IMG/VR virus record: IMGVR_UViG_3300036823_000120
Span: 1 to 64,000 of that record
DNA from: a virus
Length of the DNA stretch: 64,000 nucleotides
Reading direction: 5' to 3' (one strand)
The notes below the pieces were generated by a model that did no database searches, was not told where the DNA came from, and worked only from the letters and a program-made list of their open reading frames with translations. Positions 39,547 through 46,696 of the stretch are shown here, in pieces (position 1 is the stretch's first letter; each line of letters starts with the position of its first letter). A program made the translations under genes and the position numbers.

Positions 39547-42500
39547 TCAACTAATCGGCATTTCACAGACTTCGCCTTCACAAAACTTCGTATCAATTCC
39601 GTCTGAGCCACAAAAGCCTGACCAATCAATTTTTTGTATGGCCGCTAATCTAGCTTTGTACTCTTCTTCAGATATACCTTCCTCTGGCATTTGTTCATAT
39701 ACACCTTTTGGTGTATGAGGTAATAATGAACAAGCTTTAATTAGTGGAGCAAAAGCTGATAAGACTTTTTCAAGAATATCCTCCTCGTGATTAGGATCAA
39801 ACTTATAGACTCTCATTTCCGTAGTTTTAGTCCAATAGTTTTCACGGAACGTGACTTTGATTGAATTATTTTCAAAGTCAGCTTGTCCAGCAGCAATATT
39901 GGTCCAAGGATATTCATCTTTAAAGTATTCAATCAATTCTTTGACAAATTGGCCTTCTTTCCTAATATGCATGATAAGCTTCCACTTAGGCCGGAAATAT
40001 AGTGTATTAGAAACACTATTATCTGCCCATTCTCTCTGAACTGTGGCAAGATTAACCGCTTGCTCCCAGAGACTTATCGTATCTGCTGGAGGCGTTGGTC
40101 CTTGAAGAGTGGGATATTCATAAATTAGAGTTCCATTTGGATCAGTTACATCTGGTTCATATGGGATACATGCTTTATCAAGGATTGGACACATAGGATG
40201 GTTACGTGCAACACGAGTGCGACGCAACGTGTAATCGAATGTTGGATAACCAATACCAGCCGTTCTTCCTGCAAGCTTTGGAGTAGTACCCATTTAATCC
40301 CATAATTTTCATTATAGGCTGGACTATATCTTTATCTTTTCTAATTCACTATGACGATATCTAAAACATGAAGCATATTTTTCTACAAAACGATTATATT
40401 TTTTCTTTCCACAAATAGTTAGACGCCAAAAACTTTGGTGTTTTTCTGTAACATCAAACTTATGAATATGTGGATTAATCCAATCTTGTTGTAAAATATA
40501 TTGAGCTTTACAAATAATACTAAAATTAGTATTACATAGTTGAATTATAGGTGAAGTAGTCCAACTATGGTTAGTAAAGCTACCTTCTGCTTCATATATT
40601 CCAGCTAACCAATCTCGTGAATAAGAGTAAGATACCTCGCGTGTAGTCTCTGAGGATCGCCATTGATTGTGCTTTTCAACAATTTCTAATTCTTTGTCGT
40701 TATGCAGCGAGTATCTAGTTCTTTGCATTCGACTATTAACAAATTGTTGAAAACATTCTAATCTGACTTTATCACATTCAATGAGTGATTTAAAGTAATC
40801 TACAAATAAGCTTATAGCTACATTTGAACAAATACTTAAATCATAACAGTCAATTTTACCTGTTCTTATACTTTTAGTTTTAGAATAGTTAATAAGCTTT
40901 TGTTGTAAAATCTTTTCGCAAAGCTCAATAGCAATTTTATTAGTATTAGATATACTAATTTTTGGTTCAAAGAAAAAGCCTACATTATTGCCTCTTCTTT
41001 GTCTTTCTCTAAAACTAAAAGAACCCTCACCTTCAAAAAAGCCAGAAAACCAATGGATGTCCTGCGGGTTGTCCATTTTTATCTCTTGTTTTGTTACTTA
41101 TAAGTAACAAGAGGTCTTGGAGTTTCACGCATATAGCGAGGAGTACACTAATACATTTCTGTATTAGGCGGCAGTACATTTACCGGGTTTGCGACATTAT
41201 CCAAAAGTTTCGCTTTTGGGTCGGACTATATCACATTCCGCAAAGCATAAAAAATTTCATGCTGTCTTTTAGTATATGGCTCTTTGATATTTTGAAGCAA
41301 TCTAAGATTAACAAATTCTTTTAACAAAGAAGATTTTAATTTATACTTTTTTGTTTGGAATTCATTAATAATCTGAAAAAATCTTTGTACTCTTTTATAA
41401 CCATGAATAGTTATTACTTTATATGGACTATGTTTTAGTGGTATATAAGATGATATATGCCAACTAAGTCCTAAAGAATACAAAGTTTTCACTGTCTTGT
41501 CAATAATTTTAGTATTAGTAGAGCATACAGTTATTTCAGGATTATAATTGACTGTATTATTTCTACTCATATGACAAGAAATATGAAAACTACCTTCAGC
41601 TTCTAAAATACCAATAAGCCACCAAAAGTCTGCGGAACACTCGCATGTAGTCTCTGAGGACTCAAGATGAAATTGTCGGCAATAAAGTTTGGTCTTTAGT
41701 TCCTCTAAAAAACACAAACATTTAATTCTACCATTAATGGCTAGATCATATTCTCGTTTTCTTTTTCCTCTTTGAGTCGAAGAGATTGAAACAGATATAC
41801 CAAAAGAAGATATTATATCTTCACATTGATGTATTAGATCAATTTCAGTATTACTGATTCGTAATCTATTTTTATCAAAGGAACCTTCGCCATCAAGTAT
41901 GCCAACAAGCCAACTTGTTGCCTGCTGATTATCCATTTTAAGCCTTTATTACATAAGAAGTAGACTTAATTAAAAGAGGATTTTCCAGCAAATAGCGAGT
42001 TTCTCACTAATACATTACTGTATTAGGCCACCAATTTCTTAATGGTTGTCTTACGAATTGCTTCAGGAACACCAGCTTCAGCATTTGCTTCTTGATTGAT
42101 TTTTGTAACTTTCTCATATCCCTTTCTCATATAAGAAGTTACTTTATTCAATCCAACATCATATACCCAACCAGTCCAATCAATAATACCAATGCCAATT
42201 CTTCGGTTTCTAGCAACAACTCGATTTGTTTCCTCTCTATGAGTAGGAAGTAAGCTTACACTGCTACAATACATTGTAGCATACTCAACTGCTTCATACC
42301 ATTGTTGGACACCATTACAACGAGTTGGCAAAGTTTCTGAAACGTTGCACAATTCCTTATCTTCGAGTGGAATTTCTCCGCCGCTATTGTTACTCATGCT
42401 TAATACATGGGAGTGGTCATTTCTGCCACTCTCTGCATGTTACCATGCAGGCCGGACTATATCATCATCCTTGTAGGATGTCTCGCGTGTAGTCTCTGAG

Positions 42501-44124
42501 GTTCCAGATTATCGCTTAAGTTGACGTAACAAATGGTATGTTTGCAAGTCTAAAACTGCATCCATTTGACCATATAGTGTAGCAAGACGCTTTGTAACAT
42601 ACTCAAATAGAATTGTAGCTTCTTCATTTTTAGCTACGATATATTTGAGTAATATTTTCAAAGCTTTTTCAACACGCATCACACCATTTATTTCAACGCG
42701 CTTCGCAGCGCGTTGATTAGAGGCACGAGTTGCATCATAAATATGATATGCTAGTCCTAGCTTTTGCAGGATAAAACATATATTTTCTATGATGATTTTA
42801 TTTGTGTTGACAATTTTAATCCCTACATTGTAGGAACCTTTGCTACCTGGACTCATTGAAAAGCAACCTTCACCATCAAGAATACCACTTAACCAACCAA
42901 GCTCAAAATCTGTTACCTGCGGATTGTCCATTGCAATATACTTGGGATTTTTGCATTAGAAGCACCCAAGCCTTTAGGTACTTTCCAGCATATAGCGAGA
43001 TTGTTCACTGATATATTACTATATCAGGCCGCTAGGATTAACGGATTCAGTCCACTTGCCTTATCTTTTCTAACAGGAATTGGCTTACCAATTCGCCCAA
43101 AAGGAAAGTTTTTCAGGTTCAAGATTCCTGGCTCTCCTCTAACTGTTATACGCTTTGCTACTTCTCCTAACTGTTCAAAGTCTTCTGGATTATATAGAAC
43201 CGCTGTATTGTTAGACATCCAGCCCCATTCTTGGCGTTCAGGATTCATGTCATAGTCTTTAAGATTCATAAAAACAGGATCATGAATATCGCCCTTCATA
43301 AGTTCTGCACTACGTCTAACGTTACCAGCAACGACGCAAACTCCGAGTATATTACCTATGTCTGCTTTTAATCTGACTTCGTCAATTGATTCAGATTCAA
43401 AAAGCATTTCCATATTTTCGTGTAATCTTTTCAAAGGGACTGGGCCAGAAGCTTTTCCGCCAAACCCTTTAATTAGTAGACCTTCTTCACGAAGTTTGTC
43501 GTATTTGAAAATAGGCTTTCGTCTATTTGGCTGAGTATAAGCTTCGACAAGAAGCTTTACACTATCAGCCCAACCTTCTCGTGAATCTGGAATTTCAAAG
43601 ATATAAGTTCCAACAGGCTTATATCTAATTAATCCAGTTCGTTTTGGTTCAAATCCAACACCAACACCAAGCATCAAAGCATCCATCATCCAATTCAAAT
43701 CATTGGCGAGAGTATCATTATCGCCCAAAACGCAATATCCGCAATTGTTAAGAGCCATAGAGCCACGTTCATATATGAACGATGTACCCATAGCCCATAG
43801 ACCCCGACCACCAGGAAACCAATGCATATTGAACAAACTGATTGCCATTCTATAGGCATAAGCTTGCCAGTATTCTTCGTCCCATCTGATATAGTTTCGA
43901 GCATAAAAGTCTTTTCTAATCGAGAAAGTTCCATTAATTACCCTTGTTACAACATCAGCCCAATTTTCCTGTCCACCATTTGTTTTTATGCGACTATATG
44001 TCCTAAAGAAAACTAATTCACCATAGCCGTCATAACCAAAATCTGGCTTCATAAGCTGAAGTCTTGAAGCAAAATCAAGACTTAGTGAGAAGTGTTCATT
44101 TACATACTTAGTGGGGACCACCAT
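39547..44124 (-). CDS. nrdJ: Adenosylcobalamin-dependent (class II) ribonucleotide reductase, split by three group I introns
   Basis: Exons 44124-43041, 42381-42042, 41191-41182 (10 nt) and 40290-39547 join to 2178 nt, 725 aa, close to the 739 aa of Lactobacillus RTPR. Visible sites: NNCGYCVLG (first redox Cys), NPCGEIPLEDKELC (thiyl-radical Cys and partner; the Cys codon is split T/GC by intron 1), KTTIKPGGT (across introns 2 and 3) and the C-terminal FCEGEVCEM (reducing pair). It makes deoxynucleotides from ribonucleotides with B12. Start overlaps the upstream stop by 17 nt; a downstream start is possible. Confidence 0.9.
40291..41181 (-). ncRNA. Group I intron 3 (891 nt)
   Basis: Minus strand 41181 to 40291. 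The internal guide GCCG near the 5' end pairs with exon CGGT, ending in a U-G pair. P7 strands are CAGAGACTACA (about 40650, inside the ORF) and GATATAGTCC (about 40310); the last base is G. It encodes a LAGLIDADG protein. P2 hairpin CTAATAC/GTATTAG is shared with intron 2. Confidence 0.85.
40324..41076 (-). CDS. LAGLIDADG homing endonuclease of intron 3
   Basis: 250 aa with two motifs, WFSGFFEGEGSF (about residue 9) and WLAGIYEAEGSF (about 152), so a monomer that cuts the intronless RNR allele. The ORF begins at the ribozyme core (MDNPQ from GACAACCCGCAGG) and encodes the 5' P7 strand as SSETTRE. Confidence 0.9.
   Translation of the reverse strand: MDNPQDIHWFSGFFEGEGSFSFRERQRRGNNVGFFFEPKISISNTNKIAIELCEKILQQKLINYSKTKSIRTGKIDCYDLSICSNVAISLFVDYFKSLIECDKVRLECFQQFVNSRMQRTRYSLHNDKELEIVEKHNQWRSSETTREVSYSYSRDWLAGIYEAEGSFTNHSWTTSPIIQLCNTNFSIICKAQYILQQDWINPHIHKFDVTEKHQSFWRLTICGKKKYNRFVEKYASCFRYRHSELEKIKI
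41192..42041 (-). ncRNA. Group I intron 2 (850 nt)
   Basis: Minus strand 42041 to 41192. Guide GTGG pairs with exon CCAT (U-G at the splice site); terminal G before the micro-exon. P7 strands CAGAGACTACA (about 41655, inside the ORF) and GATATAGTCC (about 41228). P2 hairpin as in intron 3. Confidence 0.85.
41226..41936 (-). CDS. LAGLIDADG homing endonuclease of intron 2
   Basis: 236 aa with motifs WLVGILDGEGSF (about residue 9) and WLIGILEAEGSF (about 103). It starts MDNQQ on the ribozyme core sequence GATAATCAGCAGG and encodes P7 as SSETTCE. Paralogue of the intron 3 protein. Confidence 0.9.
   Translation of the reverse strand: MDNQQATSWLVGILDGEGSFDKNRLRISNTEIDLIHQCEDIISSFGISVSISSTQRGKRKREYDLAINGRIKCLCFLEELKTKLYCRQFHLESSETTCECSADFWWLIGILEAEGSFHISCHMSRNNTVNYNPEITVCSTNTKIIDKTVKTLYSLGLSWHISSYIPLKHSPYKVITIHGYKRVQRFFQIINEFQTKKYKLKSSLLKEFVNLRLLQNIKEPYTKRQHEIFYALRNVI
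42382..43040 (-). ncRNA. Group I intron 1 (659 nt)
   Basis: Minus strand 43040 to 42382. Guide GCGG pairs with exon CCGT; the last base G precedes GCGGAGAA. P7 strands are CAGAGACTACACGCGAG (about 42480-42498) and GATATAGTCC (about 42452). P2 CTGATATAG..ATATCAG. The ORF ends before P7, unlike introns 2 and 3. Confidence 0.9.
42509..42931 (-). CDS. Single-motif LAGLIDADG endonuclease of intron 1
   Basis: 140 aa with one motif, LGWLSGILDGEGCFSM (about residues 12-27), so probably a homodimer. Starts MDNPQ on core sequence GACAATCCGCAGG. Shorter than the proteins of introns 2 and 3 but with a related N-terminus. Confidence 0.85.
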   Translation of the reverse strand: MDNPQVTDFELGWLSGILDGEGCFSMSPGSKGSYNVGIKIVNTNKIIIENICFILQKLGLAYHIYDATRASNQRAAKRVEINGVMRVEKALKILLKYIVAKNEEATILFEYVTKRLATLYGQMDAVLDLQTYHLLRQLKR

Positions 44125-45937: not shown

Positions 45938-46247
45938 TTCTTCTTACCTGAATAATTAAAATAAGCAAATCATCTTTTGATACACCAGTGTAATTTCTAA
46001 TTCCTAGTTGAGCAGCTAAAGCTCGTAGCTGACGAATAGTTTTATCGCAAACTTCATTACGAAGTACATTATCCATCCATTCTCTGACGTATTCAAGATC
46101 AGCATCTTGAATTGCTCGCTCTAAGCGGGGATTATTTGAATCCAATCTCAGACATTGAGTGAATGATACTGAGTGAACTATTCTCTCTAAAGCTCTAAGA
46201 TCATTGAATCTCGATCTTATTCGATATTGTACATCAGCTATATTCAT
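45903..46247 (-). CDS. SAP/Rho-N-like domain protein
   Basis: 114 aa. Near the C-terminus IRQLRALAAQLGIRNYTGVS then KDDLLILIIQ fits the SAP/Rho-N helix-extended-helix motif that binds nucleic acid. The N-terminal part is helical. Possibly a DNA-binding accessory protein of the polymerase cluster. Confidence 0.6.
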   Translation of the reverse strand: MNIADVQYRIRSRFNDLRALERIVHSVSFTQCLRLDSNNPRLERAIQDADLEYVREWMDNVLRNEVCDKTIRQLRALAAQLGIRNYTGVSKDDLLILIIQVRRNETKSVENNVS

Positions 46248-46696
46248 AGAGTGTTAATGCATGCATATGCTCCAAAGTGCTTAATAGCAGCTTCGTTATA
46301 AGCTTTTGCTGCATCCTCCTCTTTATCAAAGTAACCTAACCTCATAATTTTGTTATTAACAAAAATATAAGAATCCCATTTCCTATATAATTTGTTATAA
46401 CTTACTCCTTTATATTTGGAGCTACAGTGTGTTTGTCTTTTAGACTTATTCTTTTCATTGTCGCTTCGTGTTGCAGCTCGCAAATTAAATTTTTGATTAT
46501 TTAACTTATTACGATCAATATGATCTATAATTTGAAAATTTAATTTGACTGTTAAAAGCTTATGCATATAGGTATTATCGCCATTGTCTCTGGCATACCC
46601 ATTACATAAGTACCAAGTTCTTAAGGCAAAAAGAAGCCAATCTTCATCATCTACGAGTATAAGCAAATCTGAATTTATTAAGCTTATTGTCTTCAT
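46244..46696 (-). CDS. AP2/HNH homing endonuclease (intact copy)
   Basis: 150 aa. HNH at about residues 58-75 (IDHIDRNKLNNQKFNLRA), AP2 at about 90-145 (SSKYKGVSYNKLYRKWDS, AAKAYNEAAIKHFGAYACIN). Its start overlaps the polymerase stop (ATGA). Serves as the reference for the frameshifted copy at 24010-24469. Confidence 0.85.
   Translation of the reverse strand: MKTISLINSDLLILVDDEDWLLFALRTWYLCNGYARDNGDNTYMHKLLTVKLNFQIIDHIDRNKLNNQKFNLRAATRSDNEKNKSKRQTHCSSKYKGVSYNKLYRKWDSYIFVNNKIMRLGYFDKEEDAAKAYNEAAIKHFGAYACINTL

Follow-up and report, generated by a model that had tools for sequence, protein, structure and literature searches.

A predicted 10-nt exon between two LAGLIDADG-bearing group I introns in a phage class II ribonucleotide reductase gene

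The DNA analyzed here, hereafter the window, is a 64,000-nt stretch (positions 1 to 64,000) of a 94,582-base virus record from a metagenomic assembly (IMG/VR IMGVR_UViG_3300036823_000120). Its minus strand, on which all features of the locus lie, carries a ribonucleotide reductase (RNR) gene divided into four exons. Exon 1 (43041..44124, 1084 nt) has the 3′ end ...AATCCGT, the last T of which opens the codon of Cys362 (split as T and GC); exon 2 (42042..42381, 340 nt) runs from GCGGAGAAATT to AAGACAACCAT; exon 3, the micro-exon CAAACCCGGT (41182..41191), comprises 10 nt and codes for the (I)KPG of KTTIKPGGT; and exon 4 (39547..40290, 744 nt including the stop codon) starts with GGTACTACTCC and contains Cys715 and Cys720. 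Joined, the exons give 2178 nt, or 725 amino acids and a stop codon, in which the NPCGE and TTIKPGGT motifs are uninterrupted. A preliminary description of this DNA had joined four coding pieces into exactly 726 codons of a class II RNR; its coordinates, exon sequences and total length were all reproduced, and homology agrees with the enzyme class that it had assigned.

By sequence comparison the product is an adenosylcobalamin-dependent (class II) RNR of the NrdJ/RTPR type. The spliced protein aligns along its length with the intron-less RNRs of Actinomycetia phage DSL-LC01 (38% identity) and Mycobacterium phage Nebkiss (35%), its best solved relative is Lactobacillus leichmannii RTPR (1L1L, E 3.6e-64), and the matches to the intron-less relatives and to RTPR extend across all three junctions. 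Pfam recognizes the RNR alpha and class II insertion domains in exon 1 (PF17975, PF21995). In a three-sequence alignment, cysteines 128, 362, 373, 715 and 720 are invariant; given what is established for RTPR, we take these to be its C119, C408, C419, C731 and C736. If this correspondence holds, Cys362, the codon of which is split by intron 1, is presumably the thiyl-radical cysteine. Since the invariant cysteines are spread over exon 1, the first junction, exon 2 and exon 4, the enzyme needs all of the junctions. The 94.6-kb record yielded no further RNR copy. A search of IMG/VR with exon 1 as query found no close relative of this phage's RNR, which is why an empty-site allele of the gene is absent from the comparison. 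RNR residues from about 577 to 641 (within window positions 39547-40290) form a 65-residue insertion absent from both aligned phage relatives.

The three intervening sequences have the architecture of group I introns. Intron 1 (42382..43040, 659 nt) lies within the Cys codon of NPCGE, and introns 2 (41192..42041, 850 nt) and 3 (40291..41181, 891 nt) flank the micro-exon; helices P1 to P9 can be drawn in each. The pairs between exon ends and internal guide sequences (CCGT/GCGG, CCAT/GTGG and CGGT/GCCG, each closed by a U.G), the terminal G of each intron and the two P7 strands were all recovered as the preliminary description had given them. All four P1 pairs form in every intron, with the U.G at the 5′ splice site, and the terminal G falls at 3′ junctions fixed by the protein alignment. 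The P7 5′ strand (CAGAGACTACA in intron 1) lies at 42488..42498, 41646..41656 and 40642..40652 in introns 1, 2 and 3, respectively, and the 3′ strand (GATATAGTCC in intron 1) at 42454..42463, 41223..41232 and 40321..40330. When the helices were assigned by hand, P1, P2, P3, P6, P6a, P7, P8 and P9 were fully paired in all three introns, and P4 of introns 1 and 3 contained a single mismatch each. Pairing is kept in several helices despite sequence differences among the introns: the outermost pair of P3 varies (U-A, A-U or C-G), and the strands of P6a and P9 match their own partners well, but those of the other introns poorly (25-75%). P10 can form in intron 2 (CAA/UUG) and intron 3 (GGUAC/GUACU); in intron 1 it consists of three pairs only (GGA/UCC), offset by two bases. 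Unconstrained minimum-energy folds of the trimmed cores, which cannot hold the P3/P7 pseudoknot, recovered the majority of these helices for intron 2 and a smaller number for the other two introns.

The covariance search suggested in the preliminary description (Rfam Intron_gpI, RF00028) detected a group I signal in each intron, although none reached the gathering score of 50, which is a threshold for detection and not a structural criterion. Intron 1 scored 48.6 bits (E 1.9e-10); the 3′ and 5′ halves of intron 3 scored 40.6 bits (E 4.9e-8) and 21.4 bits (E 0.028); and in intron 2 the 5′ half scored 22.7 bits (E 0.011), with no match reported for its 3′ half. The scores fall below the cut-off because the inserted LAGLIDADG open reading frames (ORFs) split the match, and introns of the same type at three other loci (L252, L264 and L300) score 72-79 bits. 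Low scores would also be expected of dead introns in a decaying pseudogene. This possibility has very little probability, given that every exon is open, the cysteines are kept, the core helices are intact, and the three intron-borne endonuclease genes are all open and retain acidic LAGLIDADG residues. Together, pairing and covariance signal support the assignment of all three as group I introns, and self-splicing is predicted for each.

Each intron carries a gene for a putative LAGLIDADG homing endonuclease, with PF14528/PF00961 matches above cut-off and motifs with an acidic residue at the catalytic position (GILDGEG, GILEAEG, GFFEGEG and GIYEAEG); endonuclease activity would be expected of the proteins. 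H1 (42509..42931; PF14528, PHROG 5046) has a single motif; it starts in P5′, occupies the loop of P6a and has its stop codon ahead of P7. H2 (41226..41936) and H3 (40324..41076) each have two motifs and match PHROG 5046 twice. Both start in P5′ and are read in frame through P4′, P6, P7 and P3′, so that the P7 5′ strand is coding as well and the P7-P3′ strand is translated as SSETT[CR]E (SSETTCE in H2, SSETTRE in H3). Their second LAGLIDADG domain sits in the P8 loop, flanked exactly by the P8 stems (UUCCGCA/UGCGGAA and UAUCUU/AAGAUA), and both end at a TAG within the P7 3′ strand GATATAGTCC. Such overlap of an endonuclease gene with a ribozyme core is unusual, and an ORF running from P6 through P7, P3 and P8 has been published for the Synechococcus L1917 intron (PMC1995217). 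Among the loci examined, the window included, 28 of the 43 intron cores with a LAGLIDADG ORF open through P7 use the H2/H3 reading frame there.

The two-domain layout of H2 and H3 was also found in capsid-gene introns of other phages (L217, 2989-3729; L218, 2462-3229). Among annotated phages, tblastn with H2 and H3 gave no match. A quick tree, computed without support values, unites the first domains of the H2, H3, L217 and L218 endonucleases and places the second domains of H2, L217 and L218 among single-domain enzymes. Because of these placements the tree weakly suggests that one ancestral fusion lies behind the two-domain endonucleases. A ribozyme core that serves as the linker between two LAGLIDADG domains suggests a route by which a dimeric endonuclease could become a monomer inside an intron. 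Two further arrangements were noted in passing. A short group I intron at L104 (6380-6600) contains a small ORF, starting MDNPQ and including SSET, that resembles the endonuclease ORFs minus the endonuclease, and it adjoins an endonuclease-bearing intron in the same gene. At L011 (5060-7320, minus strand), a capsid-like gene is interrupted by two introns that belong to this family and each encode a LAGLIDADG protein with one motif; one of the two endonuclease genes crosses P7 in the SSETTRE frame.

Frame and conservation point to inclusion of exon 3 in the mature RNA, with predicted junctions CCAU-CAAACCCGGU-GGUAC. Near introns 2 and 3, all combinations of splice sites were enumerated in which the 5′ exon ends in U and forms a 4-bp P1, the intron ends in G and the frame stays open without a stop; there were 98 such parses. 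The 10-nt exon restoring KTTIKPGGT, as proposed in the preliminary description, ranked first when these were aligned with an intron-less relative (score 87), followed by a parse scoring 76; the best without exon 3 scored 62. The parses ranked second and third satisfy the frame and the P1 and terminal-G rules, and on this basis the junctions might be placed slightly differently to give, for example, a 13- or 16-nt exon. This is most improbable, as such exons would add one or two residues to a motif that has no insertion in the relatives, and they score 11-12 lower. Among 80 intron-less IMG/VR relatives, NPCAE is continuous in all 80 and T[VI]KPSG[TS] in 78, the other two being unmatched by the search expression.

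The unspliced frame stops at codon 367, and at the main sites skipping of exon 2, or of exons 2 and 3 together, causes a frameshift with a stop at codon 413 or 391, respectively. A more substantial alternative is that exon 3 is mostly or wholly skipped, exon 2 being joined to exon 4, in which case most transcripts would be nonfunctional or introns 2 and 3 would behave as one unit. Exon skipping between phage group I introns has been published for Twort orf142 and a SIOphi gene (PMC11878797), and the frame would be kept, with loss of KPG, if intron 2 used a single weak alternative register of its splice site. However, skipping of exon 3 at the main sites shifts the frame to a stop at codon 523, the alternative register relies on two U.G pairs, and the KPG residues belong to a motif that is continuous in nearly all relatives. 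Predominant skipping is therefore improbable, although partial skipping of exon 3 may occur.

The reading that we favor, at a probability of roughly 0.9, is that this phage class II RNR gene contains three LAGLIDADG-bearing group I introns, two of them 10 nt apart in KTT(V/I)KPSGT with a genuine 10-nt exon between the ribozymes; from the observed gene structure, pairing and conservation we infer splicing by the usual route, in either order, and an origin by homing. Each intron would act as an independent ribozyme and remove itself by the usual two transesterifications. For intron 2, P1 (CCAU/GUGG) would select exon 2 and P10 the three bases at the 5′ end of the micro-exon; for intron 3, P1 (CGGU/GCCG) would select the last four bases of the micro-exon and P10 exon 4. 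The micro-exon is thus divided into CAA (P10 of intron 2), ACC, and CGGU (P1 of intron 3). Since the two recognition sites share no base, either order of splicing would be possible and would lead to the same product; with a gap of just three bases (ACC) between the helices, simultaneous action of both ribozymes on the exon is unlikely. The micro-exon itself may have arisen when endonuclease-driven homing placed two introns side by side in a highly conserved stretch of the gene. A typical LAGLIDADG target spans 18-24 bp. The insertion points are 10 bp apart, about half such a target, and introns 2 and 3 should therefore destroy or rewrite each other's homing site. If the flanking ribozymes are mutually exclusive in time and the endonuclease targets mutually destructive, then introns 2 and 3 could form a co-adapted unit in which obligatory sequential splicing gates dNTP synthesis, and phage genes would contain a widespread class of 10-20-nt micro-exons that has been overlooked. 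We regard this extension as rather unlikely.

The arrangement described above is not unique. A tandem-intron pattern, GATATAGTC-N(73-103)-CTATWTGCNNGRA, which runs from the end of one core (P7′) into the P3/P4 region where the following core begins, has a single match in the window, and 100 shuffles gave none. In IMG/VR it retrieved loci L250, L251 and L252, and a shifted version applied to GTDB genomes retrieved L302, a Chitinophagales MAG contig, together with several 23S rRNA genes. In the first four, group I introns interrupt a phage-G-like capsid gene and are separated by small exons of 12, 19 and 14 nt (L252, reverse complement, 2260-2271; L250, reverse complement, 2531-2579 and 2850-2868; L302, 4786-4799). 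The 12-nt exon of L252 is GGCAAATCCCAT; L250 lacks the intron that follows it, and the matching bases there are continuous with the next exon. The 19-nt exon of L250/L251 and the 14-nt exon of L302 (TGTTGTAGATCCGT) lie elsewhere in the gene. L250 and L302 lack some of the L252 introns and so provide natural empty sites. After splicing, the L252 protein shares 69% identity with the L250 protein and 74% with the L302 protein; for the L302 protein, the major head protein of phage G is a one-piece match. A reading of the capsid acceptor as ...DPYLVPQG was rejected, because at each of the three loci a shift to the next G yields DPLPQG and an intron that ends in G. These genes resemble the RNR gene in their closely spaced group I introns and obey the same rules, with a 5′ exon ending in U and an intron ending in G; they differ in that the host is the major capsid gene (phage G gp27-like) and several of the introns have no ORF. 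The 23S rRNA genes with two group I introns near positions 1917 and 1931 number eight (L262, L264, L265, L273, L284, L287, L295 and L300), several of them in Patescibacteria; Rfam confirmed three of these as 23S rRNA, and the spacing of about 14 nt is our own reading. Other pattern matches (L009, L010, L012, L015, L247-L249 and most of those in GTDB) were ordinary coding DNA or unrelated loci in which P7 or P9 is absent.

Published systems place the RNR exon in a similar light. In the mitochondrial cox1 gene of placozoans, a 1-nt micro-exon lies between two group IB introns (PMC5436844). As in the RNR gene, the micro-exon is isolated between two group I introns at a conserved site with the frame kept; the placozoan exon, however, is organellar, shorter and supported by RNA-seq, whereas the phage RNR exon is predicted from sequence. 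Fungal mitochondrial mini-exons of 3 nt, as cited in PMC8971849, are likewise organellar and shorter, so far as that citation describes them. Among phages, the large-subunit RNR gene of Bacillus phage phiNIT1 has a cDNA-confirmed small exon between two group I introns (PMC11878797); the gene is likewise an RNR gene, but the enzyme is class I and the exon, by our reading of the record, 66 nt rather than 10 nt long. Synechococcus sp. C9 carries introns L1917 and L1931 in one 23S rRNA gene (PMC1995217). These two group I introns, like introns 2 and 3, are close together (14 nt) and have LAGLIDADG genes, with an ORF through P7, P3 and P8, but the host gene is rRNA rather than protein-coding and the endonucleases have a single motif. 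Introns in nrdE and orf142 of Staphylococcus phage Twort are cited in PMC3653736 and PMC11878797. As described in those citations, they resemble the present case in the presence of several group I introns in one phage gene and in RNR as a target. For these two Twort genes we know of no micro-exon of the 10-nt size.

The preliminary description had called exons this small very unusual. The 10-nt exon is indeed extreme, and among phage and bacterial genes it is the shortest that we found between group I introns; in literature searched outside most subscription journals, no report was found of one as short in a phage or bacterial protein gene. It nevertheless belongs to a known kind, of which it is a clean and extreme example, in view of the 12-, 14- and 19-nt capsid exons, the 14-nt 23S rRNA exons and the published mitochondrial exons of 1-3 nt. 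A length of 10 nt is near the minimum (3+3+4) at which P10 and the P1 of the next ribozyme avoid shared bases, which opens splicing order and exon skipping to direct tests in a simple system in vitro. Exons of 12-19 nt recur in capsid genes, and gene finders reliant on ORFs will therefore miss conserved residues in uncultivated phage genomes. Elsewhere in the window, an HNH endonuclease gene (46244-46696, minus strand; PHROG 99), probably free-standing, lies directly downstream of a DNA polymerase gene and overlaps its end.
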